Positions 1-20,488 of a DNA stretch of 20,488 nt are shown here, piece after piece. The notes under the pieces are model-generated. The model was not told where the DNA came from. It did no database searches and saw only the letters and a list, made by a program, of their open reading frames with translations. The DNA comes from a virus: the IMG/VR virus record IMGVR_UViG_3300032177_000087, positions 1 to 20,488 of that record; one strand, written 5' to 3'. A program made the position numbers and the translations under genes. Each line of letters begins with the position of its first letter. Positions within the stretch are counted from its first letter, which is position 1.

Positions 1-1012
1 CTGCCGAATCTGCCAGTCCACCAGAAGAAATGATCGTTAAAAATGGGAGGGAAAGGTCAAGGTTACCTACTTCACCAGTCAATCCCGTAGCCGCAATTCT
101 TAATCCAGGAAGATATGCACTAACCCTTCCAACTTCCCCGGTTTGGCCAGTCGCCTCAATCGTCAGGGCTGGCAGATCGACCCGAAGTGCGGCCATGCTA
201 TCGCGGCCGGTCGCCGCGCAGGTCAAAGCAGGAAGATCATTCGCGGCATCCGCCGTCCAAGCCTCATTATAAACGGTGGGAACAACCAAGGAACCAAGGG
301 AGTAAAACTTTTCCGCCGTTACGGTGATAAGATTCGTTACCGTAGGAACGATGATGCTGGATGTGGAGGTAAATATCGACTCGCCATATTCGTAAAATGG
401 CGGAGTGAAGGTGGTGGACCATCGGGATATCCCATTGCTCCAGCGATGTTCTTCAAACCAGCCGTCTCCACTCTGAGAATAGTCAGGATCATGACCAATA
501 TACATCGCACCGGTACTGGGATTTATGTTACCAGAATTAGATTGGTCCGATCCTAATTGTGTTCCATTTATCCATGCCCGTATAGTTCCAGCCTCTCTAG
601 TTATGGCAATATGGTACCAAGTGTCTGCCGATGGAGTCCAAGAAAAAGTTGTAGTTGTATTTTCACATCTGACACGTAGAGTACTGGCGGAATACCAATC
701 TAAATGGAAACCCGTATAAAGAGTTCCAAAATAAAGAAATCTCTGATACGTTGGAGTACCATTCCAACGATGTCTAAAATCTAAAGTGAAATTTCCCGTT
801 CCGGGGTTCATTGCCGCAGTGAGTGGGGCGGAGATATAATTCCCGGTCCCGGCGGGCCTACGCATAGAAGCACTACCGAAGACTTTCACCGCGGTATCTA
901 ACTGTGCGTCCCCGATAGCAGTCCACACGATCCCCAGTTCGTCAGTAAAGACCTGACTTTGGTTCACGCCGTTGAAGTGCAAGACGGATTTAGTATATGG
1001 ATCGTAAGGCAT
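1..1012 (-). CDS. LamG-domain tail/fibre-like protein, C-terminus beyond the left edge
   Basis: An open frame of at least 337 codons runs from ATG at 1012 to the window edge without a stop. GGAG lies about nine bases upstream of the ATG. The N-terminus has the phage LamG entry motif (YTKSVLHFNG, then VFTDE and IGDAQLDTA). It is followed by beta-rich sequence with the LamG-type segment SADTWYHIAITREAG at about residues 134-148 and GAMYIGHDP near 180. This fits a concanavalin A-like (LamG) jelly roll, usually carbohydrate-binding. After about residue 250 come degenerate repeats of roughly 25 residues of the form LPALTIEATGQTGEVG. A virion surface protein such as a tail fibre or receptor-binding component is inferred from domain and position. 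The first 40 residues resemble the N-terminus of the glycosyltransferase at 18658-20409. Confidence 0.75.
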   Translation of the reverse strand, partial: MPYDPYTKSVLHFNGVNQSQVFTDELGIVWTAIGDAQLDTAVKVFGSASMRRPAGTGNYISAPLTAAMNPGTGNFTLDFRHRWNGTPTYQRFLYFGTLYTGFHLDWYSASTLRVRCENTTTTFSWTPSADTWYHIAITREAGTIRAWINGTQLGSDQSNSGNINPSTGAMYIGHDPDYSQSGDGWFEEHRWSNGISRWSTTFTPPFYEYGESIFTSTSSIIVPTVTNLITVTAEKFYSLGSLVVPTVYNEAWTADAANDLPALTCAATGRDSMAALRVDLPALTIEATGQTGEVGRVSAYLPGLRIAATGLTGEVGNLDLSLPFLTIISSGGLADSA

Positions 1013-7237: not shown

Positions 7238-8455
7238 TTAAATCATCGTCGGTGGTTGTTCGTAAATTCTCTTCTTCGCCATCTGGCAATATTCCGCTTT
7301 CAGGTCCAGGCCGATGAAATTTCGGCGATACTTCGCGCAGACTATCCCGACCGTACCGCTGCCAGCGAAGGGGTCGAGGACAACCGCCGGAACCGGATCA
7401 AGACCGCATTTGCAGGAGGGTTTCCAGCCGAGGGTTTTGGTGTATCCATCAATCCTTCCACTTCCACTTTTCCCTACCGTCCCGGTATGTTCTCCGGTTC
7501 CACCCCTCGCTTCGTGGCTTGCCTGTTCTTTGGGACATGTCTTTGAAATGGCCTTTTGGGTTTCCAGCACCCTCACCCACGGCCCCCCACACTTCGGGCA
7601 GACGCCTTTCTCGGATGTTCCGGCGAGGATACATCGGCGGGCGAGTTCTTCTGGAAATGTGGCGAAGTGGGATTCGGGGAAGGGTTGGGTAGCGATATTC
7701 CAGACGGTGCGGATGTTGCGGCCCCCATTTGGTTCTGCCTGCATTGATTGGCCGCCATCAATAGCGCATCGGTGCCTTGATTCAATGCCGCTTCTTAATT
7801 CTTTTCTACACCCAATGCGTACCTCTCCGCCATGTCTTTGTTCTTTGGGGCGTCCATCCATCTGCCATGCACCCTCGGAAGTATATGGCCTTCGGGGATC
7901 TCCGGTAATGCTTTTCTCCCTCACCGCCTCCTGGTCGAAGAAGTAGCTGGGCTGCTTCGATAGCAGGAAAACATATTCGTGGGACTTGGTCGGCCGGTCG
8001 GTGACGCTCTCCGGCATGGGATTCGGCTTCGCCCATATGATGTCCGATCGTAGATACCAGCCATCGGCCTGAAGAGCGAAGGCAAGGCGCCAGGGAATAC
8101 CACAGAGGTCTTTAGGCTTAAGGCCGGGGGAAGTCGAGCGGTTGTGATCATCGCCACAAGCAGAAGCCCGGTTTGTCATCTGTTTGCAGCCAATGCGTGT
8201 TCCGTGACCATTTCTCCCGGCGGCGTTATAAGAATCCCCCATATTTAGCCAAAGTGTAGCCTCCGGTTTCATCACTCGCCATACCTCCCGGAATACCATG
8301 GCCATTTTCTCGACGTACTCTTCGGGTGTTTTCTCAAGCCCGAGCTGTCCGTTGACTGCGTAATCACGGAGGCTCCAATAGGGCGGAGACGTGACCACAC
8401 AATGAACTGATTTATCTCTTAACGGAATTTGAAGACTATTTGATCTTAAAATCAT
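7238..8455 (-). CDS. DNA methyltransferase (N4-cytosine/N6-adenine, beta-type order) with zinc ribbon
   Basis: 405 residues. The catalytic motif TSPPYW is at 22-27 and the SAM-binding motif DPFAGSGTVG at 361-370, followed by FIGLDLKAEYCQMAKKRI. Catalytic before SAM motif is the beta-class order, and SPPY fits N4-cytosine or N6-adenine methylation of DNA. Between them are the target-recognition region and a probable zinc ribbon: CPKC at 286-289 and CKC at 348-350. Such phage enzymes usually protect against host restriction or mark the genome; no cognate nuclease is seen next to it. The ATG at 8455 lacks a strong SD (only GGGCG), so it may rely on coupling to the preceding small gene. Confidence 0.88.
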   Translation of the reverse strand: MILRSNSLQIPLRDKSVHCVVTSPPYWSLRDYAVNGQLGLEKTPEEYVEKMAMVFREVWRVMKPEATLWLNMGDSYNAAGRNGHGTRIGCKQMTNRASACGDDHNRSTSPGLKPKDLCGIPWRLAFALQADGWYLRSDIIWAKPNPMPESVTDRPTKSHEYVFLLSKQPSYFFDQEAVREKSITGDPRRPYTSEGAWQMDGRPKEQRHGGEVRIGCRKELRSGIESRHRCAIDGGQSMQAEPNGGRNIRTVWNIATQPFPESHFATFPEELARRCILAGTSEKGVCPKCGGPWVRVLETQKAISKTCPKEQASHEARGGTGEHTGTVGKSGSGRIDGYTKTLGWKPSCKCGLDPVPAVVLDPFAGSGTVGIVCAKYRRNFIGLDLKAEYCQMAKKRIYEQPPTMI

Positions 8456-8468
8456 TTAACAGAACGCC

Positions 8469-8537
8469 CTATTCGACCCAAAACCCCACTACTACCAGGG
8501 CCACTAAAGAAATAATAATAACGATTAAACCATCCAT
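8469..8537 (-). CDS. 22-residue single-pass membrane peptide
   Basis: A tiny ORF whose ATG overlaps the stop of the adaptor gene as TGATG. It consists of MDGL, an almost purely hydrophobic run (IVIIISLVALVVVGFW), then VE and a TAG stop. The size, the one-helix hydropathy and the coupled start are typical of phage mini-membrane proteins that gene callers miss. Its function cannot be told. The last bases before the methyltransferase start (AGGGCGTTCTGTTAA) echo the end of the adaptor gene (AAGGCGTTCTGTTGA), so a short duplication may have created the spacer. Confidence 0.5.
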   Translation of the reverse strand: MDGLIVIIISLVALVVVGFWVE

Positions 8538-9451
8538 CAACAGAACGCCTTATTCACTCCAACCGTTTCGGCTGTTTGAATTGCAAGTTGGGTAAGATTA
8601 AACACTTTTTTCACATCACCTTCGATCTTTCCGTCGTCCGATCCCTCGAATTGCTGACGATGATACTCTGCCTTCTGGATGTCGTAGGCCTCATTGTCCT
8701 GTTTCAGGTACGCCCGAGCAAGAATTCCGTGTTTCAGGTACTTGTGGTACTTTAATTCGAACTCTGGGCTTGCGATCAGGTCGGAAAGGGACATGGGCGT
8801 GAGGGGAAGTCGATAGACCATCAGTCTCATCGTGTCATAAGCCGAGATGGTCTTGGTCGCGGTCTCATTAACAAATGTTGCCGCCGAGCAGGTAATGGCC
8901 AGGGCCGAAACGGTGGTAATGTAAAAGGGCCCTGGGTTGTTTGCCGAATCCGTAGTGATCTTGTCTCCAACGATGAATCCATCGGAGACAAACGAACCGC
9001 CACCCCGAGTAATCGTCTTTCCAGAATTGGCGAAAGTGATGGATAGTTCTCCAGATGTAAGTTTGGCAGTCGGAGTTGGAATCAGCCGGATATAGCCAGT
9101 ACGCATGTTCTCACAGCCTATTTGAGGATGTCCGGCCCCGGCAGATGCCCAGGTGGGATAATGGTTCTCCAACCAATCCCGGGTACGCCACGCAAGAGGA
9201 TAGCGGGAACTATCAAGGCGAGCTTCGCGAACACGGATTATGCGTGGATCCTTGGCATAATAAGGTATACCTGGCGTTATCTTGATGATGGTAAAATCCG
9301 AATAGTCATCGTAGATAAGATATGCCGCCTGGCAGATCGTCTCGATGGACGGATTGATATAGGATAAGAGATCTGCATCGCTCCAAAGATACGGAGAAAT
9401 GAGATCGTCGAGATTTGCACGAGCTTCCAAAATCAAATCGGCTAAAGTCAT
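8537..9451 (-). CDS. Head-tail adaptor/connector-like protein with inserted beta module
   Basis: 304 residues, ATG with AAGGGG upstream. The N-terminus (LADLILEARANLDD, then PYLWSDADLLSYINPSIETI) is the typical helical start of phage adaptor proteins (gp6/gp4-like) that dock under the portal. The core continues GYIRLIPTPTA and resumes with RLMVYRLPLTPM, then helices ending in HKYLKHGILARAYLKQDNEA and a Q/E-rich helix. Residues about 135-205 interrupt a beta hairpin and form the same module seen in the 1068-1754 protein (TRGGGSFVSDGF, VGDKITT, GPFYITTV). Without it the protein has the usual adaptor length. Role inferred from family: joins head and tail. Confidence 0.75.
   Translation of the reverse strand: MTLADLILEARANLDDLISPYLWSDADLLSYINPSIETICQAAYLIYDDYSDFTIIKITPGIPYYAKDPRIIRVREARLDSSRYPLAWRTRDWLENHYPTWASAGAGHPQIGCENMRTGYIRLIPTPTAKLTSGELSITFANSGKTITRGGGSFVSDGFIVGDKITTDSANNPGPFYITTVSALAITCSAATFVNETATKTISAYDTMRLMVYRLPLTPMSLSDLIASPEFELKYHKYLKHGILARAYLKQDNEAYDIQKAEYHRQQFEGSDDGKIEGDVKKVFNLTQLAIQTAETVGVNKAFC
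8837..9049 (-). other. Shared beta-rich inserted module, copy 2
   Basis: About 71 residues placed between PTPTAKLTSG and RLMVYRLPL of the adaptor, a position that is normally a short turn. Its motifs and their spacing match the module at 1356-1589 in another virion protein. Confidence 0.65.
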
Positions 9452-9471
9452 CTTGGCCCCTTTGTGGCCCC

Positions 9472-9777
9472 TTATGCGTTAAACATAAACGGATTGATTA
9501 CGGGAATCATCGTGTCTGCGTAGGACATTCCGGAAATGTTCACCAAAATATGATGGCCCTGGTTATCCGCCTTGAAAATGGGATTAAAAATGCAGTTAAA
9601 CTTCTTTAAAGAGTCATTAATTTCCAGGGCACAGAGATTGGCGCGGACGCTTCCATCGAGGGTCTTGATCTTCTCCGGAGTCAATTCATCAGACAGTGTC
9701 TGATCTTTCTTTTCTTCCGGTTGTGCAACGGGTAGTTGCACTGGTTTCTCTTCCGGTTTATTCCCGTTTTCGCCCAT
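9472..9777 (-). CDS. Small hypothetical phage protein
   Basis: 101 residues, ATG with GGGGGGTGA upstream. The first 30 residues are charged and proline-rich (KPEEKPVQLPVAQPEEKKD), likely disordered. Then comes a compact domain: LTPEKIKTLDGSVRANLCAL, NDSLKKFNCIF and a final VNISGMSYADTMIPVINP. I recognise no family. It is the first gene after the sigma-70-like promoter at 9805-9833 and directly precedes the adaptor gene, so a virion or assembly role is possible but unproven. Confidence 0.6.
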   Translation of the reverse strand: MGENGNKPEEKPVQLPVAQPEEKKDQTLSDELTPEKIKTLDGSVRANLCALEINDSLKKFNCIFNPIFKADNQGHHILVNISGMSYADTMIPVINPFMFNA

Positions 9778-9804
9778 TTGTCACCCCCCAATAAATTTTA
9801 TAAG

Positions 9805-9833
9805 ATCATACACCGGCGGTTTAAACTTGTCAA
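9805..9833 (-). promoter_or_regulatory. Near-consensus sigma-70 promoter
   Basis: On the minus strand TTGACA (9833-9828) and TATGAT (9810-9805) are separated by exactly 17 bases. The -35 is perfect and the -10 has one mismatch to TATAAT. It points at the 9472-9777 gene, with the start codon 28 bases beyond the -10. It lies in the only longer AT-rich gap of the structural region, just after a hairpin, so it likely begins a separate transcription unit running through the adaptor and methyltransferase genes. Confidence 0.8.
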
Positions 9834-9857
9834 TGGTTTTTTAACTTTTGGTTACAT

Positions 9858-9889
9858 AATTTCAGGGGGGCATATAACCCCCCTGAATT
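9858..9889 (-). terminator. GC-rich hairpin ending the beta-helix gene transcript
   Basis: A perfect ten-base stem (TTCAGGGGGG with CCCCCCTGAA) closes a seven-base loop, 20 bases after the stop of the 9908-10915 gene and just upstream of the promoter. The following minus-strand bases (ATTATG) are not a real T run, so termination may be inefficient or factor-assisted. Confidence 0.6.
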
Positions 9890-9907
9890 GCTAGGGTTAA
9901 TCGAAGG

Positions 9908-10915
9908 TTAGGAAGTAATCATGCGCAACATATCATTGGCAGTTGCGGTGTAAGAAGCAGGGACACGCACATACGCCTTCGTGGCATCCGCCGTAAGCAG
10001 GGTCACATTATCGAAGGCGCATAGAGGATCCAGGTACACACGGCAAGTAGCAGACCCGGTTAATTTGATCGCTTCGGCCATCGCCGTGTTCATGCTAGAA
10101 GACATGGCGTAGAACTTGCAATTCTCGAACGCTACCTCCGTCAATCCAGAAGTATTCTCCACCTGCACGAAATACGGCGTGTCGGCTCCAAGATAGGCCA
10201 GGAAGGTACAATTCCGGAATAGGGTACATGTCCCCACCCCAAGAGCCACATTACAGTTGCCCAAACTTCTGGCAACCGAAAGATTGCCAAAGGTGCAATC
10301 CTCGAAAAGCTGGAAGCCCGTGCCAACAACACGAACACCCTGATAGGAAGCATCTCCGGCCAGACCCGTGCTGTTCGGACCGTGTAAATGGCACCGTTTG
10401 AAGGTGTTGTAATTTCCGTTAATCAGCCACCCAACGTGCGTCACGTGCGTTGTGGAATATCCGTGCATGGTGTATAGGTTGGCAAATAGATTGCCTACAC
10501 CCGTAGTACCACTGGCTCCAGCAGTCCCCACGTTGATCATTGCATAGCCCGAGCCAACAACCCCATAATCTGAGGCCATACCGATACGGGAACGCATTCC
10601 CTGCATGCCCGGGCCAGAACCGATCAGGCTAAACATGTTCTCTGTGAAGGCCGGATCGGCCGCGAGACTTATTCCGCTGCTCACGCCCGCTAAGCTGGCA
10701 TTCTGAAGTAGGATAATTCTGTCGTTTTTGCCTGTTGTGATGAGGGATCGGGCTTTCGCCAAAGTCTTCACGGGCTTGGCAATAGACTTACCGGTATTAC
10801 CATCCGTTCCATTTGTCGGATCAAGGTAACCGGTCCGACGAACATACGGACTGACTCCACCGCCAATGATGCTATCGACGGTCAACTCTCCGATACTAAA
10901 CAGTTCTTTTCTCAT
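9908..10915 (-). CDS. Right-handed beta-helix virion protein
   Basis: 335 residues, ATG with GAAGGAGAAAATTTCA upstream. The opening GYLDPTNGTDGNTGKSIAKP, then VKTLAKARSLI and IILLQNASL, is the entry typical of pectate-lyase-like beta-helix proteins in phages. The middle shows helix rungs with aligned asparagine, phenylalanine and cysteine positions: YNTFKRCHLHGP, FQLFEDCTFGNL, CTLFRNCTFLAYLG, EVAFENCKFYAMSS. No catalytic Asp/His set stands out. Located downstream of the capsid and decoration-like genes and tRNA-Thr, it may be a head fibre or tailspike-like surface protein. No N-terminal particle-binding domain is evident beyond the first 25 residues. Confidence 0.75.
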   Translation of the reverse strand: MRKELFSIGELTVDSIIGGGVSPYVRRTGYLDPTNGTDGNTGKSIAKPVKTLAKARSLITTGKNDRIILLQNASLAGVSSGISLAADPAFTENMFSLIGSGPGMQGMRSRIGMASDYGVVGSGYAMINVGTAGASGTTGVGNLFANLYTMHGYSTTHVTHVGWLINGNYNTFKRCHLHGPNSTGLAGDASYQGVRVVGTGFQLFEDCTFGNLSVARSLGNCNVALGVGTCTLFRNCTFLAYLGADTPYFVQVENTSGLTEVAFENCKFYAMSSSMNTAMAEAIKLTGSATCRVYLDPLCAFDNVTLLTADATKAYVRVPASYTATANDMLRMITS

Positions 10916-10978
10916 TGAAATTTTCTCCTTCGGTTATTCAGCGCGTCTGTGCTTCCCGGCCGCCTACGGTTTAGAAAT

Positions 10979-11001
10979 CCCCGGGGATAATCTCCCCGGG
11001 G
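10979..11001 (-). terminator. GC hairpin after tRNA-Thr
   Basis: Nine-base arms (CCCCGGGGA and TCCCCGGGG) enclose a five-base loop. The stem starts three bases after the encoded CCA end of the tRNA and is followed by ATTTCT. It may terminate transcription or protect or guide 3' processing of the tRNA. Confidence 0.55.
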
Positions 11002-11004
11002 TCT

Positions 11005-11079
11005 TGGAGCCCACGGTAGGCCTCGAACCCACGCGCAGGAGTTTACAAAACTCCGCTCTACCAACTGAGTTACGTGGGC
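11005..11079 (-). tRNA. tRNA-Thr (anticodon UGU), CCA encoded
   Basis: The acceptor arms GCCCACG and CGTGGGC pair fully, with discriminator U and an encoded CCA. The D loop is AGTTGGTA, the anticodon stem GGAGT/ACTCC holds loop TTTGTAA (anticodon TGT), and the T arm GTGGG/CCTAC holds TTCGAGG. Minor oddities are an A10.C25 mismatch in the D stem and no spacer base 26, giving 75 nt including CCA. It starts nine bases after the stop of the 11089-11610 gene, so it is probably cut from the structural transcript. It reads ACA and possibly other ACN codons. Confidence 0.92.
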
Positions 11080-11088
11080 AATCAGAAA

Positions 11089-11610
11089 TTACGTGGTGTA
11101 ACTTCCGGTTCCGCCAGTGGTGATCTGGGAGTACCCACTCACATCAACCAGGACCGCATAGAAATCGACCACAGCCGCATCGACGGTGGCGCTATCAAGA
11201 TTGGTAAAGGTAAGGACCGAATTGTCCGCCAAGGGGTGGAAAGAATCTGCCCCTCCAGAGTTGAAAGCAGCGTCAACATCCGAAGCCACGTAGCCGGCAA
11301 CAGTCAAAATCTGACCGGTAACTCCATAGCCGTCAGCATCTACCACGGTAATAACGCCAGCGGCGGTTTCGGTATAGACACCCAGTAAACCACTCGTCTC
11401 AATGTCGGCGTCCACCGTGATTACTTTCATGCCGAATTTGAGAACGAAGCAATCGGCCGGAACCTTGAAGATACCCATAATCCCATTCTGGGCCAGGTTA
11501 TTCGCGGCCACGCTGAAATCAACCCTCTTGCGAAGGACGGTTAATTTATTACCTGGCCAACTCAGGCTATAACCATCATTTGCCACTTTGCTAACAGTAA
11601 AAGCTGCCAT
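11089..11610 (-). CDS. Capsid decoration-like / head structural protein
   Basis: 173 residues, ATG with AAGGAGA upstream. The sequence is low in charge and beta-rich, with FKVPADCFVLKFGMKVITVD at about 47-66, an acidic loop, LGVYTETAAGVITVVDADGY, and a C-terminal strand VDAAVVDFYAVLVDVSG. Small beta proteins of this kind directly after P22/HK97-like major capsid genes are usually decoration or head-stabilising proteins. The identity is inferred from position and style, not from a motif. A small GC hairpin (GCCCC/GGGGC, 11641-11656) lies in the gap behind the capsid stop. Confidence 0.65.
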   Translation of the reverse strand: MAAFTVSKVANDGYSLSWPGNKLTVLRKRVDFSVAANNLAQNGIMGIFKVPADCFVLKFGMKVITVDADIETSGLLGVYTETAAGVITVVDADGYGVTGQILTVAGYVASDVDAAFNSGGADSFHPLADNSVLTFTNLDSATVDAAVVDFYAVLVDVSGYSQITTGGTGSYTT

Positions 11611-11668
11611 TAGAAAATCTCCTTTCCTATGTGAGGAATTGAGCCCCTCCGTAGGGGCCGAAAGTTGT

Positions 11669-12846
11669 TTACTTGGTTAGGTACAGTTCGCCCATGGCCG
11701 CAGACTTCAGGACTTTGTATCCGTACACGTTCAGGCCACGGACCAGGTCTCCGAAGGTACTCTCCGCCCGCAGACTTTCCATCTTGGTCAACTGAGCCGC
11801 AAAAGTCAGAGCGGACTTGTGAAGAAAGTAGGCGTACCAACAGGTCGTGCTGGTCCCGCTATCCGTCACCGAATAGAGCAGGTTGCTGGAAAAAATCGTG
11901 AAGTTGTCGATATTCCCTATTCTTCCATTTCGGAGAACTGATTTACCATCTCCGGTCAGGGAGGCATCTTTCAGATCGGACTTTTTGATCCGCCCAACCG
12001 CCCACGCGGGAAGGACCAAGGCCAGGTCTTCCGTGGGGATATTCTGCTCTTCGAGAACGGTACGGCAGTCCACGATGATATCAAGGGCGTTTTCCTTAGT
12101 GAACTGCAGGGGGGCCGTGGAGGCGCCCAACTGGAAATCGGCGGAAATACGGCCGGCCGCATTGCCTTTATTCTGAGCATGGGCCTGTCCCACCATTCCA
12201 GTCAGAATATCGCGGTCAACCGAGATCTTCATCTGGAAGCCCGCATCGTTTGACCAATCATCCATCAGCCGAATGTCGGTCTGGTGGAGAACGATGTCGT
12301 CACAGGTAAAACCAAAATATTTGCCTTTGTCGATGGTCAACTCGACAGAAGGGCTCTCGGGACGCTGATAGGTCAAATTCATCCCGATGCTATAATCGCT
12401 GATCGTGATGTCGGGGGTGGTTCTGATGTGAACTTTATCACCTATCCCCCGGATTTCGCCTTCATACAACCTGTTACTTTATGACCCTTGCGGGCGGGCG
12501 GTCATTTCTGTCGCCTCTGCATCTTTATTTATTCATGCAGTTCGGACTATCGCATCACCATAATGGCGTCCTCTCGTTTAGTCTCTCACGGTGCCCATTG
12601 GGCTTCCGCCTTGTTGCCCACATCCTGGGTTTTCAAGTCAATTAGAGAAGATTTTTCACGGACTACGAGTTAATCCGTGTTGCTAATGTCGGCCAGCACA
12701 CAAGCTGAATAAAACTTAATCAGAAGTTTTGCTGACCACACCTCCAAAATTCATTAGCAAATTTCTTATCCCCAAGGTGGTTAAGGGATAAACATTGATG
12801 TTCCTGAAGCGTTATAAATCGGATGTCCACCAGTTACGGGGTACAT
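11669..12846 (-). CDS. Major capsid protein (P22 coat-like), split into three exons
   Basis: Read straight, the gene is broken. ATG at 12846 (SD AAGGAG) gives 21 codons ending TSMFIP and then TAA. Removing 12745-12783 and 12467-12672 gives one clean frame: exon 1 12784-12846 (21 aa), exon 2 12673-12744 (24 aa), exon 3 11669-12466 (265 aa), 310 aa in all, with both joins at codon boundaries. The joins read FIP|EVWSAKLLIKFY and ADISNTD|YEGEIRGIGDKVHI, which is the normal N-arm of phage coat proteins of the P22-like HK97-fold group. The rest (IRTTPDITISDYSIG, VELTIDKGKYFGF, a long helix with DRDILTGM, C-terminal KVLKSAAMGELYLTK) is intact. It follows the scaffold-like gene by 25 bases. Splicing is inferred, not shown. 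Confidence 0.88.
12467..12672 (-). ncRNA. Compact group I intron (206 nt) in the major capsid gene
   Basis: Numbering from the 5' end (12672). P1: exon CACGGAT with intron 10-16 (GTCCGTG), U.G at the splice site. P10: intron 5-9 (TCGTA) with exon 3 TATGA. P3: 24-29/99-104. P4: 36-39/60-63 with AAAA joiner. P5: 44-47/53-56. P6: 64-67/82-85, P6a 70-73/77-80. P7: GACTA 90-94/TAGTC 124-128, the conserved guanosine-site helix. P8: 105-109/113-117. P9: CTGCAT 133-138/151-156. A further stem pairs 168-173/187-192. The last base is G, as required. No endonuclease ORF is present, so it is immobile or depends on one elsewhere. The subclass is not assigned; P2 seems absent. Confidence 0.88.
12673..12744 (-). 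other. Isolated middle exon of the capsid gene
   Basis: Twenty-four codons beginning GAG GTG TGG and ending ACG GAT encode EVWSAKLLIKFY, SAC and VLADISNTD, the conserved N-arm segment between the two inserts. It is in frame with both flanking exons only when both inserts are removed, and skipping it would delete a conserved part of the coat protein. Confidence 0.85.
12745..12783 (-). other. 39-nt insert with group I-type P1 and P10 but no core
   Basis: The insert follows codon CCT of TSMFIP and starts with an in-frame TAA; three more in-frame stops follow. Numbering from 12783: exon TTATCCCT pairs with insert 11-18 (GGGGATAA) in eight base pairs, ending in a U.G pair exactly at the boundary. 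Insert 5-10 (CACCTT) pairs with the first six bases of exon 2 (GAGGTG). The last base is G. This is the layout of a group I internal guide with P1, P10 and terminal G. The complete intron next door has guide elements at almost the same positions and shares the TAAC start and TTG end. Bases 20-38 can form a weak second hairpin. No P3-P8 is possible in 39 nt. Confidence 0.7.
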
Positions 12847-12871
12847 TGATAATTCTCCTTCTTAGGGGAGC

Positions 12872-13969
12872 TTATTTGTTCAGGATCTTCCCGGCCGATA
12901 CGGCGGCGTCTATTTTGGCTTGGATGACTTTTTGTTCCGCCTCCTTGCCTCGATATTTTCCGGTCACAACGTCCTGAGAAAATTTCCGAATAAAGCTCCT
13001 GGCAACGGGCTCTGGTCCCTGATTTTGCTGGCTTACCGCCCCGGGCCCCGATGGACCACTTCCGGGGGCGACGTACCGGGCATTGGGATTTTGAGCCGGA
13101 GTTAATACTTGCGCAGGAGGCACGGCCATTTCTTTCTTGAAATCGGATAGCAGATTAATCACTACCTGATGATCGAACTTTGCGCTTGCAGTTCGTAGGG
13201 CCATGAGTTTTGACAACCCATAGGTGTCGGTTTTGCTCAACCAGACTGGCCATCGTGGATCTCCCTGGCAAATAGTCTCCCAGTCGGGGTGCATATCGGC
13301 GATGGTCCTAGAAAAAGTTTCCTGCTTCGTATTGGAATTGATTTTCTCAATAGAAGCGATCTTCTCGTCTGATTTCTTGGTTAGTTGAGTACCGAAATCG
13401 TCCAGGATCTTTGACATGGGACCAAAAACGTCCGGAAAGTTCTCCCTGAAGTTTTTTATGGTCTCGTCGGGGCTGGACTTTAACGCCTCACTGAATACCG
13501 ACGTTGCCGGGGTTGCCGGCGTGGTAACGGCCGCCGTCATGGCCGGTTGTATGGCCGTATTGGCTATCTGCGCATTCAGGTCGGCGATCTGGTTCTCCAG
13601 GTATTGCATCCGATAAGTAAGCCGTGGAACCTCCGCGTCATACTTTCCCTGCAACACGCTGTACCGCTGTTTGTTCTTGTCGCATTCGGGACAGGCCGCA
13701 GGGACCGGTATAGGCGGTGCTGGCGTCACTGGCTCCGGTGGCGCTTGCAACGCGGGAGCCGGGGGAAAATTGTCTTGATTGGCATTGACGTATTCCGCCG
13801 GGTCCGGAGTAACAGGAGCGGGTGCGGGAGCTACGGGGGGAGCCGCCAGGGGGTCGGTGATCCCGGGAGGTGTCACAGCCGGTGGTTGGTTTTGCGACAC
13901 TCCAAATTGCTTCAGTAATTCGTCTGCCCGTCTTCCTTGTTCTTCAACTGCTCTTGGTAATCTTGCCAT
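12872..13969 (-). CDS. Scaffolding-like head assembly protein
   Basis: 365 residues from ATG at 13969 (AAAGGA eight bases upstream); the frame could extend to 14137 but that would run into the 14103-14158 stem-loop and has no SD. After MARLPRAVEEQGRRADELL comes a long Pro/Ala-rich, likely disordered part to about residue 110. A heptad-like coiled coil follows (RLTYRMQYLENQIADLNAQI), then a helical region with DETIKNFRENFPDVF and MHPDWETICQGDPRWPVWL, and a basic C-terminal helix (GKYRGKEAEQKVIQAKIDAA). This design, directly upstream of the coat gene, is typical of phage scaffolding proteins that guide procapsid assembly. The basic C-terminus is where scaffolds usually bind coat. No protease motif is seen. 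Confidence 0.75.
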   Translation of the reverse strand: MARLPRAVEEQGRRADELLKQFGVSQNQPPAVTPPGITDPLAAPPVAPAPAPVTPDPAEYVNANQDNFPPAPALQAPPEPVTPAPPIPVPAACPECDKNKQRYSVLQGKYDAEVPRLTYRMQYLENQIADLNAQIANTAIQPAMTAAVTTPATPATSVFSEALKSSPDETIKNFRENFPDVFGPMSKILDDFGTQLTKKSDEKIASIEKINSNTKQETFSRTIADMHPDWETICQGDPRWPVWLSKTDTYGLSKLMALRTASAKFDHQVVINLLSDFKKEMAVPPAQVLTPAQNPNARYVAPGSGPSGPGAVSQQNQGPEPVARSFIRKFSQDVVTGKYRGKEAEQKVIQAKIDAAVSAGKILNK

Positions 13970-14102
13970 TTTAATTTTCCTTTCTGCGAGTCCTTGCGGG
14001 TGTTCGCCGGGAATGCCCGGAAGAGCCCTGGCTCGGGTCTTCTTCTCGGGGTTGGGGTTAAACCCGCCATCAACATATGAGGGCGGGGATTTAATTTTGG
14101 GC
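13970..14102 (-). promoter_or_regulatory. Leader of the scaffold gene
   Basis: 133 bases between the stem-loop at 14103-14158 and the scaffold ATG. It is open in the scaffold frame but lacks a convincing start. Short GC inverted repeats occur, for example GGGCATTCCC. I found no clear -35/-10 pair; a transcript beginning after the stem-loop would have to start here. Confidence 0.3.
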
Positions 14103-14158
14103 AATAAAAAAGGGCAGAAGTACAGTGGAGTAGGCACCGTACTCTGCCCTTTTTTATT
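14103..14158 (-). terminator. Strong stem-loop with A and T tracts upstream of the head genes
   Basis: Minus-strand arms AATAAAAAAGGGCAGAGTAC and the 21-base partner at 14103-14123 pair with a single bulge around a loop of about 15 bases. A T run follows the GC part on either strand. It stands after the initiator tRNA and before the scaffold leader, so it separates lysis/tRNA from head genes or attenuates read-through. A sister element with the same entry (GCAAGAA, then an A-rich stretch and GGGC) lies at 2596-2652. Confidence 0.8.
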
Positions 14159-14223
14159 CTTGCGTCTCCTTGGCCTGGCCGGGCCGCAGAAAACCCAATA
14201 CGATTATTTAATTTTCAAAGAAC

Positions 14224-14300
14224 TGGTTGCGAGGGCCGGATTTGGACCGGCGACCTTCGGGGTATGAGCCCGACGAGCTACCAGGCTGCTCCACCTCGCG
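14224..14300 (-). tRNA. Initiator tRNA-fMet (CAU), CCA encoded, unusual T loop
   Basis: 77 nt with all hallmarks of a bacterial initiator. The acceptor is CGCGAGG/CCTCGCA with a C1.A72 mismatch, the D stem GAGC/GCTC has A11-U24, and the anticodon stem TCGGG/CCCGA carries the three G-C pairs next to loop CTCATAC. The discriminator is A, and CCA is encoded. The T stem GCCGG/CCGGC is perfect, but the loop is TCCAAAT, so position 55, normally U (pseudouridine), is C. It sits 25 bases after the holin stop. A phage initiator tRNA could favour translation start in a host whose own pool is limiting or attacked. Confidence 0.93.
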
Positions 14301-14325
14301 ATAATTTTTACTTCATTACTTTCCT

Positions 14326-14745
14326 TTATCCACTTTTCGCGACGCCATTCTTGGTCTTGTCATAGCTTCTCAAAGCCCCAAGGCCCAACATGCCAAGCAA
14401 CAGCGTCATTAACTCGCCCATGTCGAGGGCGGGCATATTGTTGACGACGCCGACAACATTCAGCAACCAAGCGAGGAAAGGTTGAAGGACGTAGTTGTAA
14501 GCTAGGGAGGCTCCGCAAACCCAGCCGATAGCCGGTCGCCAGCCTGCCACAAACACCGACTCGTGTTTGGCTTCCTCGATGTTTACTTCGATCTGCTTCA
14601 CCACTACCTGGAAGCTCTGTGTAAGCTCCTGGGTTAGCAGCAGAAACTTATTCTTTTCCGCCTCGGTTTTGTCCGGCCAAATTTTGTTGATTGCTGATTC
14701 GGCCAGATTGGCAATCGATCCAATACCTGTAAGATCTAGTCCCAT
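14326..14745 (-). CDS. Holin, 3TM type (GTA_holin_3TM-like)
   Basis: 139 residues from ATG at 14745, which overlaps the protease stop as TGATG; the upstream in-frame ATG at 14799 lies inside the protease gene. The N-terminal half is an amphipathic helical region (AESAINKIWPDKTEAEKNKF, then LTQELTQSFQVVVKQIEVNI). Residues about 70-120 hold the membrane part: GWRPAIGWVCGASLAYNYVL, FLAWLLNVVGVV and ELMTLLLGMLGLGAL. The GWRP-W-C-A-Y pattern is characteristic of the 3TM holin family first named from gene-transfer agents. It would permeabilise the inner membrane at lysis, next to the M15 peptidase and secreted protease. Confidence 0.82.
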   Translation of the reverse strand: MGLDLTGIGSIANLAESAINKIWPDKTEAEKNKFLLLTQELTQSFQVVVKQIEVNIEEAKHESVFVAGWRPAIGWVCGASLAYNYVLQPFLAWLLNVVGVVNNMPALDMGELMTLLLGMLGLGALRSYDKTKNGVAKSG

Positions 14746-15392
14746 CAAATCACCCCATCCGCAAAACCGTACTGGATAGCTTCCGCAGAAGTCAACCAAA
14801 ATTCCTTGCTGCGAATCCTCGTATTCAATTCTTCCTTGGAAATTTTGCTCTTCGCCACGATGTAAGAGTTTACGTTGTCTTGAATTTTTCTAAAGATCAC
14901 GGCCTCCTCTTCTTTAGAAGAAGGTGTCTCGATTGCTAAAAATTTGAGTGACCACATCTCATGAAACATCACGATAGCGTACTTATCAATGAAGCGATGT
15001 CCCGGGGATCCACTCAGCATAACAAGAAGCCCCGCCGATGCAATAATGCTGTGGGCTCGCATCTCTACAATTTTTCCTTCATTCTGGACAATATTAAAAA
15101 GGGAGATAATCCCCATGGCGTCGAACAGACTTCCCCCAAAGGAATACAAGTCCACTACCAGAGTGTCATAAGCATACCGGTCGAGAATTTGCAGATCCCG
15201 GCGAGTGCTTTCGTAATCCATTTTTTGGATAGAGATGTTAGCAACTTTTCCGTCAAGGCGGATGTGATTTGGAAGAATGACGCTTCCGTATTTTGGAGGA
15301 GGAGCGGACTTCTCCTGTGCCCAAGTCCAATTAAACGAACCCCCGCACAACACAAACACCAGAATCAAAATCACGGACAAAAATCTTTTCAT
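14745..15392 (-). CDS. Secreted ClpP-fold serine protease
   Basis: 215 residues, ATG with GGGAGGG upstream. Residues 1-26 form a signal peptide: KR, a hydrophobic core (FLSVILILVFVLCGG) and a likely cut after TWA. The rest has the ClpP/crotonase-type fold signs: YDTLVVDLYSFGGSLFDAMG with the GGS oxyanion segment (86-88), the Ser motif HSIIASAGLLVML with Ser119, and the His motif IVMFHEMW with His144. The C-terminal WLTSAEAIQYGFADGVI is the usual ending of ClpP-like proteins. Phage ClpP-like proteases usually mature capsids in the cytoplasm. Here export and position between endopeptidase and holin suggest periplasmic action, perhaps in lysis or envelope remodelling. Confidence 0.78.
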   Translation of the reverse strand: MKRFLSVILILVFVLCGGSFNWTWAQEKSAPPPKYGSVILPNHIRLDGKVANISIQKMDYESTRRDLQILDRYAYDTLVVDLYSFGGSLFDAMGIISLFNIVQNEGKIVEMRAHSIIASAGLLVMLSGSPGHRFIDKYAIVMFHEMWSLKFLAIETPSSKEEEAVIFRKIQDNVNSYIVAKSKISKEELNTRIRSKEFWLTSAEAIQYGFADGVI

Positions 15393-15408
15393 GGTCTTCC
15401 CTCCCTTG

Positions 15409-15816
15409 TTATTTTAAGAACACCACTTGTTGCGGATGATTCTCGTCTCTGGCCACATCTGCGTGGAGCCAGCCCGGGGCCACCTCAAGACGGTTAAATT
15501 GCCCCAGCAAGAGGCCCAGCAAAACGAATCTCTTGTGAGAATCCGTACAGGAAATGTCGGCGGCTTCGCCAACTTTCTTTTCCGTTGTCAGGTGGGCCGA
15601 ATCCGGCTTGCCCCCAACCTCGGCATTGTGTCTGGGGCAGCGACACACACAGTTAAGATTTAACCCTTCTTTGAAAACCGCAAAATATTGGTCTCGGGCC
15701 ACCTGCAATTTACACATAAGTTCCATACTCACCAGACATATGCCACAGCACTTGCAGGCGACTTCGGAACGAGAAAAATTCGCGGTGATCATGTCACTTG
15801 GTTGCATTGTGCCCAT
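15409..15816 (-). CDS. Peptidase M15A endolysin (peptidoglycan endopeptidase)
   Basis: 135 residues, ATG with AGGAGA upstream. The M15A order is clear: FSRSEVACKCCG near the start, CRCPRHNAEVGGKPDSAH, EAADI and WLHADV. Predicted zinc ligands are His75, Asp87 and His118. Relatives cut peptide cross-links of peptidoglycan (D-Ala-D-Ala carboxypeptidase or L-Ala-D-Glu endopeptidase type), some as phage lysins. No signal peptide is present, so it needs the holin at 14326-14745 to reach the wall. Several extra cysteines (C21, C23, C24, C27, C56, C58, C60) form a CxCC-type cluster found in many phage M15A proteins. Confidence 0.85.
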   Translation of the reverse strand: MGTMQPSDMITANFSRSEVACKCCGICLVSMELMCKLQVARDQYFAVFKEGLNLNCVCRCPRHNAEVGGKPDSAHLTTEKKVGEAADISCTDSHKRFVLLGLLLGQFNRLEVAPGWLHADVARDENHPQQVVFLK

Positions 15817-15895
15817 CTTTTTCTCCTACCACCACAGGCGCAGTAACAATGCCAATACTTATTACGAGCCCTATCACTTTTGTCTGATTGGGCAA
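15794..15895 (-). CDS. Possible small hydrophobic peptide overlapping the endolysin start
   Basis: A 33-codon frame from TTG 15895 (or 27 codons from GTG 15877) fills the gap between two genes and overlaps the first codons of the endolysin in another frame. Its core VIGLVISIGIVTAPVVVG is one membrane helix, with a polar tail ending NATK. The start has only a weak SD (GGAAG, far upstream), so it may be chance, although lysis cassettes often hold such peptides. Confidence 0.3.
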   Translation of the reverse strand: MPNQTKVIGLVISIGIVTAPVVVGEKDGHNATK

Positions 15896-15901
15896 TCGCA
15901 G

Positions 15902-16147
15902 TTAATCTTCCGAACTCTTGATAGGATAAGTCTCTTGCTTTTTGCATTCTGTTTTTTGCCCATCAATTTTTAAAGACATCAATCGATTAGCATCTCGGAT
16001 GGCCAGGCTTGCTTCGGCCATGGCCCGGTTGCCGCTTGCGCACATGAGATCATAGCCCGGAATGTCCCGATATTTGGCCATGGCCCGATTAAGCCACAAA
16101 CTCACGGCGATTAATTTATCTGCGAGGCGCCAATCCAAATCGTCCAT
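15902..16147 (-). CDS. Small hypothetical protein in the lysis region
   Basis: 81 residues from ATG at 16147, one base after the upstream stop with GGTGG as a weak SD; a TTG at 16168 is the alternative. It is mostly helical (DWRLADKLIAVSLWLNRAM, then ASGNRAMAEASLAIRDANRL) with a charged tail (KTECKKQE). No membrane segment long enough for a holin is seen. I recognise no family. Coupling to neighbours suggests a lysis or late function. Confidence 0.5.
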   Translation of the reverse strand: MDDLDWRLADKLIAVSLWLNRAMAKYRDIPGYDLMCASGNRAMAEASLAIRDANRLMSLKIDGQKTECKKQETYPIKSSED

Positions 16148-16148
16148 T

Positions 16149-16367
16149 TTACCACCGCGGAAGTCCAAACACCTTAATTACCAACCCGTTAAAGAGACCC
16201 CCAATAAACCCGGCAATGGCACCAATACCCATAATCTTCTTCCACTTCCAATCAATCTTTTCCTGCATGTCCATGAGACACGAGTAAATAAGCGAGTTCT
16301 GTTCCGATTGTGGAAGGTTTAAAAAGTCTTCCTTGCTGACTCTGAATTGGCATTGTTCAGGTGGCAT
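16149..16367 (-). CDS. Small tail-anchored membrane protein
   Basis: 72 residues from ATG at 16367 (GAGGA eight to nine bases upstream; the TTG before it is not needed). The first 40 residues are polar and helical (VSKEDFLNLPQSEQNSLIY). Then KWKKIMGIGAIAGFIGGLFN forms the start of a single glycine-rich membrane segment near the C-terminus. The topology resembles small phage membrane proteins of the haemolysin XhlA-like sort (short coiled region, one C-terminal helix), which act with holins. This is a tentative comparison. Confidence 0.55.
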   Translation of the reverse strand: MPPEQCQFRVSKEDFLNLPQSEQNSLIYSCLMDMQEKIDWKWKKIMGIGAIAGFIGGLFNGLVIKVFGLPRW

Positions 16368-16386
16368 CAAAATATCCTCTTACATT

Positions 16387-16752
16387 TTATTCTGGTACCA
16401 TATTGCAGATGATGGCCTGGGTATCTCCCGTAGAAAACGCAAAAGTTGCTACCAGTTGCGTTTCCTGCAACGACGGCTTTAACTCAAAACGGAATTTTCC
16501 GGTGGCCGTGAAGGTGGCAGTTACGGCCGCCATGTTCGCCGTGGCAAAAAGAGTTTGCTGAAATATGGTAGAAGCGTGGACCTTCGGATTAACAAAACCG
16601 ATGGTCATTGTTGGGTTGGCTCCGTTACCCTTGGTATAGTCCACATACAGAAATACTGCCTTCTGTATATAGTGAATTTTGAATGTCGCAACAAGGGACG
16701 GATCGGTTCCAGAAACCACCCCAGTAGTTGAAGTTACTGTATTCGCTGCCAT
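16387..16752 (-). CDS. Small beta-rich structural-like protein
   Basis: 121 residues, ATG with GGAGGAA upstream. It is Thr/Ala-rich with alternating strands: VVSGTDPSLVATFKIHYIQ, VFLYVDYTKGNGANPTMTIG, MAAVTATFTATGKFRFEL and LVATFAFSTGDTQAII. Low charge and length suit a minor virion protein, and it follows the propeller protein by 21 bases. I do not recognise a named family. Confidence 0.55.
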   Translation of the reverse strand: MAANTVTSTTGVVSGTDPSLVATFKIHYIQKAVFLYVDYTKGNGANPTMTIGFVNPKVHASTIFQQTLFATANMAAVTATFTATGKFRFELKPSLQETQLVATFAFSTGDTQAIICNMVPE

Positions 16753-16773: not shown

Positions 16774-18639
16774 TTAATAAAACGGAATGATCACATTGCC
16801 AGATACCAACAAAATCTTAATCGGAGACGTTGGGGGAGCGCTTGTTGTTAAAACGACATTCCCAACTGCCTGCGCCTGAGAGCCGCCAGCGATCGCTAAA
16901 TTGTGATTCTGGGTAAGAATCACATCTTCAGCCGTCTGAGCCTGCGCTCCACTTGCCACGGTCAGCTTATGAACCTGACTGAGTACAACAGCATTGACGG
17001 ATTGGCCCTGCGTTCCATCGGCTACAATAAGAAACGTGGCCAGATCTAAATCAACATTGTCAACTTCCTGCGATTGCAGGCCAGATGCCACGGCTAGATT
17101 GTGGGCCTGAGTCAGTGCGACATTTCCAACGGCCTGGGCCTGGACTCCACCAGCAACGGCCAAATTATGATTTTGGGTAAGAATCACATCTTCAGCCGCT
17201 TGGGCCTGTGCCCCACTTGCCACCGTCAGGGTATGGGCCTGGGTGAGTAGGACGTTGCCAACGCTCTGCCCTTGATTGCTATCGGCTACCGCAAGATGAT
17301 GGGCTTGAGTTAAAACCGCATTATCGACCGTCTGGGCTTGAAGACCATTATTGACGGCCAGATTATGGGCCTGGGTCAAAACCACATTTCCGACTGCTTG
17401 CCCCTGAAGACCATCAGCCAGAGTTAAAATGTGCGCCTGAGTAAGAACTGCATTCCCAACTGCCTGCGTCTGAACACCACCAGCTACGGCAATATTGTGA
17501 ACCTGAGTTAAAACTTCGTTATTTACTGCTTGGCCCTGGGTGCCATCGGCAACGATCAAATCCACACCCGCAGAATACAATGTTTTTAAAGCTGCAAAAC
17601 TATGATTGCCTATCACAAGAACTGGGGAAGACTTTGTGGTAAGAGAACCATCTCCGACACCACCTTCACTATTTTCTCCCCAACCCCAAACTTGCCCATT
17701 TTCTTTCCTAGCAAATGGGGCATATTGTGTCGTTTCAAGCTCAACAAAAACATGACTACCTACTACAAGAACTGGAGAAGACCTATGAGTTACAGTATTA
17801 TCTCCAAGTTGGCCATAACTATTAAGTCCCCATGCCCAAATAGAACCATCTACTTTTCTAGCTGTATTAAAATAATATCCAGATGAAATTTGAGTGAAAG
17901 AATGATCACCTACTACAAGAATTGGAGAGGATACTTTATCATTAGCATTATTCCCAAGTTGACCGTATGCTCCATTACCCCAAGCCCAGACTTGACCATT
18001 AGCTTTCCTTGCAAGAGTAGTTAACATCCCCCCCGAGATTTCTACAAAACTATGCCCTCCTACTACAAGAACCGGAGAGGACCTATCAGTTATAGTGTTA
18101 TCGGCAAGTTGCCCTACACCATTATATCCCCAAGTCCAAACAGAGCCGTCCGCTTTTAACGCTGTACTATAACAATAACCTCCACAAACTTGAATAAAAC
18201 TATGACCACCTATTACAAGAATTGGAGAAGACTTACTCTCTGTAGTTCCATCTCCTAACTCCCCATATGTATTTAACCCCCAAGACCAAACTTCCCCATT
18301 TGCTTTTCTTGCCAAACAATGAGTATATCCACCTGAAACTTCTACAAAACTATGACCACCTATTACAAGAATTGGAGAAGACTTACTCTCTGTAGTTCCA
18401 TCTCCTAACTCCCCATGTGTATTTAACCCCCAAGACCAAACTTCCCCATTTGCTTTTCTTGCTACAGTAAAATTATGCCCCCCAGAAAATTCCTTAAAGT
18501 TATGACTACCAATTACCAAAACAGGTGAGGATGTATCAGTCCTAGTACCATCCCCACGTTGACCGCTACCATTTCGTCCCCATGTCCATAAAGATCCGTC
18601 ACTTTTTAATGCCCCTGAAGTATGATTTGGTGCTGCCAT
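16774..18639 (-). CDS. RCC1-like seven-bladed propeller protein with eleven 22-residue repeats
   Basis: 621 residues, ATG with AGGGGA upstream. Residues 1 to about 355 are seven RCC1-type blades of about 50 residues, each with a core like GEVWSWGLNTYGELGDGT and a following SSPVLVIGGHSF; seven is the number needed to close an RCC1 propeller. From about 362 to 603 follow eleven tandem 22-residue repeats of the form LAVAGGVQAQAVGNVVLTQ plus a short H-x turn, a beta repeat common in phage fibre-like proteins. A hydrophobic tail ends the protein (IKILLVSGNVIIPFY). A surface protein for host binding is likely, inferred from repeats and context. The propeller part is much more AT-rich than the repeat part, which suggests two origins. 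Confidence 0.8.
   Translation of the reverse strand: MAAPNHTSGALKSDGSLWTWGRNGSGQRGDGTRTDTSSPVLVIGSHNFKEFSGGHNFTVARKANGEVWSWGLNTHGELGDGTTESKSSPILVIGGHSFVEVSGGYTHCLARKANGEVWSWGLNTYGELGDGTTESKSSPILVIGGHSFIQVCGGYCYSTALKADGSVWTWGYNGVGQLADNTITDRSSPVLVVGGHSFVEISGGMLTTLARKANGQVWAWGNGAYGQLGNNANDKVSSPILVVGDHSFTQISSGYYFNTARKVDGSIWAWGLNSYGQLGDNTVTHRSSPVLVVGSHVFVELETTQYAPFARKENGQVWGWGENSEGGVGDGSLTTKSSPVLVIGNHSFAALKTLYSAGVDLIVADGTQGQAVNNEVLTQVHNIAVAGGVQTQAVGNAVLTQAHILTLADGLQGQAVGNVVLTQAHNLAVNNGLQAQTVDNAVLTQAHHLAVADSNQGQSVGNVLLTQAHTLTVASGAQAQAAEDVILTQNHNLAVAGGVQAQAVGNVALTQAHNLAVASGLQSQEVDNVDLDLATFLIVADGTQGQSVNAVVLSQVHKLTVASGAQAQTAEDVILTQNHNLAIAGGSQAQAVGNVVLTTSAPPTSPIKILLVSGNVIIPFY
16815..17548 (-). repeat. 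Eleven tandem 66-bp coding repeats
   Basis: DNA for the 22-residue repeats of the RCC1 protein. Units are diverged, but some pairs are close: the stretch from 16912 (GTAAGAATCACATCTTCAGC) recurs at 17178. Copy number could change by recombination, altering the length of the C-terminal stalk. Confidence 0.75.
18196..18462 (-). repeat. Near-identical 117-bp direct repeat, 150-bp period (RCC1 blades 2 and 3)
   Basis: 18196-18312 and 18346-18462 are identical over 117 bases except for a/g at 18267/18417, which changes Tyr to His in the blade. The 150-base offset equals one RCC1 blade of 50 residues. The other blades are far more diverged, so this is a recent duplication or gene-conversion event. 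Confidence 0.85.
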
Positions 18640-18657: not shown

Positions 18658-20409
18658 TTACTGTAATTCTAAAACTGCCCTAACTACTCCATCAGACTCT
18701 AATAAGTATTTAGACCAATCTGGAACATCTACATCCGCACTCTGCTCATATAGCCGTGTTGGACTACTATCAATATCATCAATAACTAATCTCTTATATA
18801 ACGCCATCGTTTTATAAGACGGACTGCCATTCCGCCAAGGCAAAATATGATCTGGATGTTTACACGAAGGCAGAAGAACAATCCAGTTATCAAAAGCCCC
18901 GGCCAAATGAATTGGAGCAGAATCATTAGAAATTAAAACTTTAGACAATGAAAGTAGAGCCAAAGTTTGATCTAAACTTAATTTATTCCTCAAATCAATA
19001 GCCCCTTTTGGGCATATGACATCCACTGTTCCCCTTGACCCCGCTATAAAATCAGGAGGATCACCAGGAGAATCAAGACCAATGATACACAAATCTTTCC
19101 CGGCTTTTACTAGCCCATCAATAATCTGTTGCCAATATTCTACTGGAAACGTCTTTGATTGCCAATGTCTTCCGGGATGTATCACAATCATAGAATCAAA
19201 ATTGGTACGTCCAGTAATATCAAACATTCTATTCATTTCATCCAATTTTAAATCTATCTTGATTTGCCTATCAACAACTGGAAGTGTTCTTTTCATTAAA
19301 CAAATAGATGAATAATCCAACATATGAGACATTAAATGAGAACAAACAGCCCATTGGATACTTTTAGGACTTTTCAAAGTTTCAGTAATAAAATAAGGAG
19401 TATCATTATTTAAATCCGCTTTCCCATGCTCCACAATTCTTGTCCCATTACCATTCGCAAGATGTTTAAAAATAGTTGGAAAATGTGTAGCAATAACAAA
19501 TTCATCATGCGGATATAATTTATCTCGCATAAATCTGACAGCCGGTTCCGCACCTACTTGATCCCCTAGACCCCCCGAAACACTCACATAAATATGTTTT
19601 TTATAAACATAATTACCTTTATCATTTTTCCACTTATAAAGATCTTTTTTAATTAGTTCCAATACGATTGCCAAAGAAGGATAACCCGCGTAATGAATAA
19701 TGTAAGAATCATATCGTTCCTCTCCTGTTACACAATCAACACAAGTCATACGATTAAATTTATGTGGAAGTTCATAAACATCAATATTTTCCTTAGCAAT
19801 AATCATATTCAAATAACTTTGTTCATAAAAACTAAAAATTTCTTTTTCGGGTTTCCTAAACATATATTTATGCTTTTGTGAAATTACCATAACACCAGAA
19901 TTATAATATTTGCCGTTCCAAGATTGTAAAGTTTCCCCATATTGTTTACAAATATCAATCATTAATTCCTTACTACGATCCGTAAATGGGGCTTCATTAA
20001 AAACACCAAGTTTTTCTGGTGGAACAATTTTGAACAAATCTGGACAGTCATCTCTTATAATTAAATCACTATCAAGATAAAGAATCCTCTCATATTTTTC
20101 AAGAAGATTAAAAATTTGAAATTTTTCCCAATGAGGGGTTGTTTGTGAAATAAACTTTTTATTTATAACAACAAATTCTGCACCGATCTTTTTTGCGTAT
20201 TTTCTTAATATTGGATGCGTTAATTGCCCTATACGATGATAATCCGGGCCAATAGCGATAGTCAAAACAGCTTTTTTCCGTTTAATCATTTGGGCGTCAG
20301 CAACAGTAGTTACAGTACGAGTTGAGAGACTACTATCCTTGAATACAGTTGACGCATCCGTTCCATTCATGTGAAGCAAAAGTTTTGTGTAAGAATCATT
20401 CCCTGGCAT
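18658..20409 (-). CDS. Two-domain glycosyltransferase (GT8-like + GT9-like) with LamG-type N-terminal tag
   Basis: 583 residues. Residues 1-40 (SYTKLLLHMNGTDAS, then VFKDSS and VADAQ) are the opening of a phage LamG protein, not glycosyltransferase sequence. From Met41 (20289) a GT8-like domain runs to about 250: a strand start (KKAVLTIAIG), the DxD metal/nucleotide-sugar motif YLDSDL at 113-115, NSGVMV at 170-175 and HYAG at 239-242. From about 271 a GT9 (heptosyltransferase-like) domain follows: SGGLGDQVGAEPAVRF, HPGRHWQSKTFP at 411-422 and SNDSAPIHLAGAF at 494-506. It probably adds sugars to a host surface glycan or a virion protein. The gene is AT-rich. Its ATG abuts the upstream stop (TAAATG). 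Confidence 0.82.
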   Translation of the reverse strand: MPGNDSYTKLLLHMNGTDASTVFKDSSLSTRTVTTVADAQMIKRKKAVLTIAIGPDYHRIGQLTHPILRKYAKKIGAEFVVINKKFISQTTPHWEKFQIFNLLEKYERILYLDSDLIIRDDCPDLFKIVPPEKLGVFNEAPFTDRSKELMIDICKQYGETLQSWNGKYYNSGVMVISQKHKYMFRKPEKEIFSFYEQSYLNMIIAKENIDVYELPHKFNRMTCVDCVTGEERYDSYIIHYAGYPSLAIVLELIKKDLYKWKNDKGNYVYKKHIYVSVSGGLGDQVGAEPAVRFMRDKLYPHDEFVIATHFPTIFKHLANGNGTRIVEHGKADLNNDTPYFITETLKSPKSIQWAVCSHLMSHMLDYSSICLMKRTLPVVDRQIKIDLKLDEMNRMFDITGRTNFDSMIVIHPGRHWQSKTFPVEYWQQIIDGLVKAGKDLCIIGLDSPGDPPDFIAGSRGTVDVICPKGAIDLRNKLSLDQTLALLSLSKVLISNDSAPIHLAGAFDNWIVLLPSCKHPDHILPWRNGSPSYKTMALYKRLVIDDIDSSPTRLYEQSADVDVPDWSKYLLESDGVVRAVLELQ

Positions 20410-20488
20410 TTAAACAGAACCCTCATCCCAACCCACGGCATCCCCACCGGAGAAGGGTTTTTCTTTATCCCAATTCATTATAACAAAC
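20410..20488 (-). CDS. C-terminal end of an upstream gene, cut by the right edge
   Basis: An open frame enters from the right edge and ends TAA at 20410-20412, touching the glycosyltransferase ATG. The last residues read NWDKEKPFSGGDAVGWDEGS, then V. An ATG at 20478 is in frame but has no SD, so it is more likely internal. Too little is present to assign a family. Confidence 0.45.
   Translation of the reverse strand, partial: FVIMNWDKEKPFSGGDAVGWDEGSV

Follow-up and report, generated by a model that had tools for sequence, protein, structure and literature searches.

A GT8-GT9 glycosyltransferase gene of a tailed phage begins with 40 codons that resemble the start of a LamG gene. We consider it likely that a LamG stub has captured a gene cassette, that the 40 residues are a passive leader and that the RCC1 propeller encoded next to the enzyme is its likely target. 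On this view, recombination in a variable locus of tail genes produced the fusion gene, leaving a mobile GT8-GT9 + RCC1 cassette behind the opening 40 codons of a LamG gene. Comparison shows an in-frame join at or beside the start codon native to the enzyme; how the steps followed one another is something that we infer. The LamG start, its ribosome-binding site and the TAAATG coupling would then serve the enzyme. The 40 residues would be translated and, going by the models, would form a disordered, probably passive leader. The enzyme may modify the adjacent RCC1 propeller, with its two domains adding sugars in turn. The fusion would illustrate how an enzyme enters a phage tail-gene locus via the borrowed start of a resident gene. 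If the account is true, phages possess a portable means of adding sugar to a tail propeller, with effects on host recognition or escape from host defences.

The window (the whole stretch of DNA that was analysed) comprises the 20,488 bases of a linear viral record. It codes for a major head protein, and the overlapping viral record L127 codes for the portal and the large terminase, which is why we assign both to a tailed phage. The fusion gene, with its ORF coordinates confirmed, runs from 20409 to 18658 on the minus strand (583 residues). The features are:

20410..20488, minus strand: 3' end of an upstream 135-aa gene (gene read in L127)
20407..20412, minus strand: TAA-ATG junction, where the stop of the upstream 135-aa gene abuts the fusion start (sequence; L127)
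20290..20409, minus strand: LamG-derived leader, residues 1-40 (MPGNDSYTK...DAQ) (leader HMM, tblastn, identity with L127)
18658..20289, minus strand: GT8-GT9 enzyme, Met41 through stop codon (its GC content is 33.5% versus 48.6% in window 1-16700)
19684..20127, minus strand: GT8 domain, residues 95-242, with DSD at 113-115 (Pfam PF01501, E 2.1e-9)
18835..19266, minus strand: GT9 domain, residues 382-525 (Pfam PF01075, E 1.2e-10)
17575..18639, minus strand: RCC1 seven-repeat propeller, partner gene of the glycosyltransferase after an 18-nt gap (Pfam RCC1, E 2.5e-62; conserved neighbour)
16774..17574, minus strand: repeats at the end of the RCC1 gene, forming its C-terminal tail (GC 51.4%)
893..1012, minus strand: residues 1-40 of the LamG protein at the left end, for comparison; probably not the donor (own-genome search, BLASTP, model)

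The GC content changes in steps, from 42.5% in the leader to 29.3% in GT8 and from 40.9% in the propeller to 51.4% in the RCC1 tail (window 1-16700: 48.6%). A family was sought for the upstream 135-aa gene and none was found. Elsewhere in the window, a gene for a ClpP-like protease with a signal-like start adjoins one for an M15 peptidase (14745-15816); these are probably lysis or head maturation genes. An N6/N4 DNA methylase gene (7238-8455) has no match in the near-identical contig L078 and a partial match in L080, suggesting that it was gained or lost recently. Near 4565 and 6212, two genes are preceded by GC-rich stretches that resemble each other (GGCAAGGCGAGGC-like), and L078 has similar sequence too.

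The enzyme, its RCC1 partner and the candidate substrate

Both enzyme domains score above the curated Pfam cut-offs: PF01501 (Glyco_transf_8) with 37.8 bits (cut-off 24.3) and PF01075 (Glyco_transf_9) with 41.5 bits (cut-off 22). Among 25 sequences, D113, D115 and H239 are invariant in the GT8 half, and DSD 113-115 matches the conserved DxD metal site of GT8. In the GT9 half, the invariant residues are H411, G413, K419, N495, S497 and H501. A profile search against solved structures found heptosyltransferase II and LgtC to be closest by sequence; both build lipopolysaccharide. With the enzyme model, Foldseek retrieved two GT9-type structures, TibC and heptosyltransferase II, as well as the PBCV-1 capsid glycosyltransferase. 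The TibC-like GT9 fold was recovered with a best E of 5.3e-8 and TM-scores by target of 0.47-0.56.

The first-pass annotation missed the conserved RCC1 partner, which is a better lead to the target of the enzyme than the leader. In the window, Pfam finds seven RCC1 stretches in the partner gene, and seven repeats are seen in the sequence. Counting an RCC1 protein as present at three or more repeats, it occurs in 60 of the 74 viral enzyme loci, on the same strand every time. The 14 loci without it comprise ten with an enzyme cut at the contig edge, L027 (59 bases upstream), the partial L074 and two real misses (L042 and L062). Pairing holds for 57/59 loci that are full-length and have over 600 nt of upstream sequence, for 20/22 clusters at 90% and for 12/13 clusters at 70%, while the control loci, which were chosen for LamG, have RCC1 in 0/66. 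Among four genome-collection contigs with strong matches, L190-L192 carry RCC1 and L193 does not. The two genes are adjacent in most loci; those with several hundred to 4,000 bases between them include L048-L050, L055-L061 and L011. No description of a GT-RCC1 pair was found in the literature searched. The RCC1 mentions in the accessible part of PMC12906663 are culture-collection numbers.

In L003, L005, L006 and L007, homology to the window is limited to the stretch from glycosyltransferase residue 39-45 through the propeller end, apart from one weak match each in L005 and L007. L004 additionally shares scaffold-like and capsid genes with the window. RCC1 tails longer than 420 residues have no similarity among one another. 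The tail in the window (16774-17574) consists of VLTQAHNLAV-like repeats and may be part of a native fibre that became joined to the propeller. It is attractive to view these repeats as the leftover 3' part of the LamG gene that was interrupted, and the GC jump fits this. However, the tail has no homologue in the other cassettes compared or in viral_contigs, a single weak phage match, and 0 matches in the loci collected by then. In PHROGs, the best-matching phage RCC1 families are filed under DNA metabolism; the context at 16774-18639 suggests tail proteins.

The conserved pairing, the folds and the Ser/Thr seen before Pro in the repeats lead us to infer that the enzyme most likely glycosylates the neighbouring RCC1 propeller, which is presumed to be a tail protein. 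The residue before the invariant Pro of the RCC1 repeat is Ser/Thr in 95% of cases in 26 GT-linked loci (the window among them, redundancy in the enzyme clusters having been removed by hand) versus 40% in 22 unlinked loci; this difference was reached by 0/5000 label permutations, at 90% and at 60% clustering, but it is a hint only because the unlinked set consists largely of other RCC1 branches and some of its contigs are short. Ser before Pro is found in the unlinked RCC1 proteins of L095 and L097 too. Gene order counts against the favoured account: the RCC1 gene is downstream of the enzyme in the window and in L003-L007 but upstream in the other viral relatives, which are the majority.

The enzyme might instead act on sugars of the host surface, masking receptors or changing lipopolysaccharide, RCC1 being merely a co-travelling tail gene. 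That the closest solved structures by sequence are LgtC and heptosyltransferase II speaks for such a role, yet we consider it rather unlikely, since the pairing at the level of 70% clusters and the tail-gene setting exceed what is expected for a host-directed enzyme and the fold matches include protein-modifying enzymes. Returning to the propeller as substrate, it is tempting to speculate that GT8-GT9 + RCC1 is an undescribed virion-glycosylation cassette. It would place a short glycan on Ser/Thr-Pro of each blade and be swapped as a unit between unrelated phages into tail-gene loci, with the LamG stub as landing point and start signal. This extended proposal is tentative, and we rate it somewhat below an even chance.

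The LamG-derived leader

Residues 1-40 had been described as resembling the left-end LamG protein. An own-genome search agrees (match to residues 4-27, E 6.8e-5, 50% identity), as does pairwise BLASTP of the leader with that protein (E 1e-4). The motif given for the likeness, YTK-x-LLH-x-NG, is not matched exactly, as the left-end protein has the looser YTKSVLHFNG. By tblastn against 50,697 phage records, the leader matches Rhizobium phage proteins of the concanavalin A-like lectin type (55% identity across 38 aa, E 9e-4). A leader HMM was built from LamG proteins of other viral loci; it covers all 40 positions of the leader with 69.9 bits (best of 1,996 scored shuffles: 10.3) and gives 63.2 bits in the full fusion protein and 37.0 bits for the left-end LamG protein, a result that is partly circular because the HMM loci were picked by a motif spanning residues 7-16. 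The own-genome search, tblastn and BLASTP were unselected and so are free of that circularity. The left-end LamG gene is unlikely to be the donor. Other viral LamG starts are closer to the leader (67-75% identity), so another LamG gene probably was.

LamG likeness ends at Gln40, consistent with the boundary at DAQ that had been proposed. A LamG profile, made from the sequence that follows the leader elsewhere, had no match in P0001 residues 41-260. A complete LamG beta-sandwich is absent from the fusion, which has no LamG match beyond residue 40 and a leader that is modelled as disordered. The degenerate pattern YTK-LLLH-x-(D/N)G is found in 67 viral loci. One of these (L127) is the same fusion, and four of the other 66 are too short. 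Of the remaining 62, which are testable, 60 continue as LamG (exceptions: L123 and L147). In a wider scan of the collected loci with the leader HMM, 83 of 87 testable leader-like segments run on as LamG, and the four exceptions join no recognisable enzyme. Within these loci, the proposed check for the same leader on other enzymes was negative. In L123, a minus-strand ORF has the LamG-type leader motif from residue 294 on, followed by non-LamG sequence, possibly another swap.

Relatives bear out the claim that the leader is grafted onto a glycosyltransferase that normally begins at Met41. Of the 74 viral enzyme relatives, 64 were examined upstream; in the remaining ten, the contig edge truncates the enzyme. 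As L074 matches the GT9 half only, 63 relatives have a visible start. They begin at or near Met41, and none (0/63) has the leader, so it is not an ancestral part common to all homologues. A leader search in 13 of the enzyme-relative records found nothing at E 1.

In the enzyme model (25 aligned sequences), the mean pLDDT is 84.3 and residues 1-42 are under 50, which is partly technical because no other alignment row covers the leader. In the model of the left-end LamG protein, the equivalent stretch forms strands at 7-11, 21-23, 29-33 and 37-39 (block means 62, 84, 84 and 91). As these strands are present in the LamG model and disordered in the fusion model, the leader is, according to the models, a fold fragment: the first strands of a beta-sandwich that requires about 160 further residues. 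Of the two roles offered by the first-pass annotation, expression capture is favoured, while virion targeting fits poorly with an incomplete, disordered sandwich piece. If targeting did occur, the leader would dock the glycosyltransferase onto the virion structure that holds LamG proteins, and the enzyme would be packaged or work at the tail. The leader is in frame in both records, phage LamG proteins are annotated as baseplate or virion structural (P0002; tblastn matches), and leader-like segments are found within longer proteins as well. Even so, docking is improbable, given the modelled state of the leader, its absence from the visible-start relatives and the lack of a further enzyme with it among the collected loci.

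The leader does supply the start codon and the coupled TAAATG junction, as had been suggested. TAA-ATG is at 20412-20407 and is preceded by a moderate Shine-Dalgarno sequence. Pairing with the anti-Shine-Dalgarno sequence is worth -6.1 kcal/mol at the first ATG but -0.6 at Met41; over the 406 ATGs of the minus strand, the median is -3.6. Since Met41 has no Shine-Dalgarno sequence, the leader is probably translated. A coupled start is not unusual for this enzyme, as in several close relatives (L003, L006 and L008) it begins directly behind or within the preceding gene. Translation from Met41, with the leader as merely residual upstream sequence, would agree with the starts of the relatives, but we regard it as quite unlikely because pairing at Met41 is almost nil, the first ATG is directly behind the upstream stop and the leader frame is open for 40 codons.

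The junction and its locus

The same junction occurs in L127, with 265 nt at 100% and the leader identical and in frame. Both records end close by, the window 199 nt upstream of the junction and L127 66 nt downstream. That assembly joined a LamG gene and a glycosyltransferase gene into a chimera is extremely unlikely: these nearby breaks and the GC shift at the junction would suit it, but two records are identical across the junction, the frame is kept, and breaks of such kind are expected from a variable locus anyway.

Among sister contigs, a relative with an empty site was sought and none was found. The closest, L078, begins after the cassette; L078 and L079 share the capsid region but start too late, and L187 ends too early. 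L187 (portal 94%) and L079 (head protein 88%), with the same sample number, have other genes between portal and capsid. This suggests that the portal-to-capsid region is variable among sister phages, which fits gene exchange at that place. At the junction, several LamG relatives have CAA or CAG followed by AT(C/T/A), and the fusion has CAA-ATG. This microhomology is too short to prove a mechanism. The join may have come about either through insertion of the cassette or through a deletion that fused the LamG gene to a cassette already behind it.

Comparison with known systems

The leader's source family is the phage LamG / concanavalin A-like structural proteins that start with M(A/P)GNDSYTKLLLH. 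In those proteins the leader runs into a full sandwich, whereas in the fusion it stops at residue 40. Phage-encoded RCC1 repeats are shared with coliphage phAPEC6, which has eleven RCC1-like proteins with a DNA-organising role suggested by the authors (PMC7247149). In the accessible text of that paper, the word stem glycosyl is absent.

The autotransporter heptosyltransferases TibC and AAH, which carry out protein O-heptosylation, have a GT9-type fold like that of the enzyme (Foldseek: 4rap, 4rb4). The TibC enzyme gene adjoins the adhesin gene. TibC is a dedicated enzyme that glycosylates a surface adhesin, according to the accessible part of PMC4358343, in which the tibC gene order was not found. 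Compared with TibC and AAH, the system described here, known from sequence and model, has GT8 fused in front, an RCC1 propeller as partner, a phage setting and about 16% identity.

The PBCV-1 capsid glycosyltransferase (2p6w, 2p72, 2p73) is also virus-encoded and, by its PDB titles, takes part in glycosylating a virion protein. Judged by its size and its rank among the matches, it seems to correspond to the GT8 half. It differs in being a single-domain enzyme of an algal virus that acts on a capsid protein, with about 14% identity.
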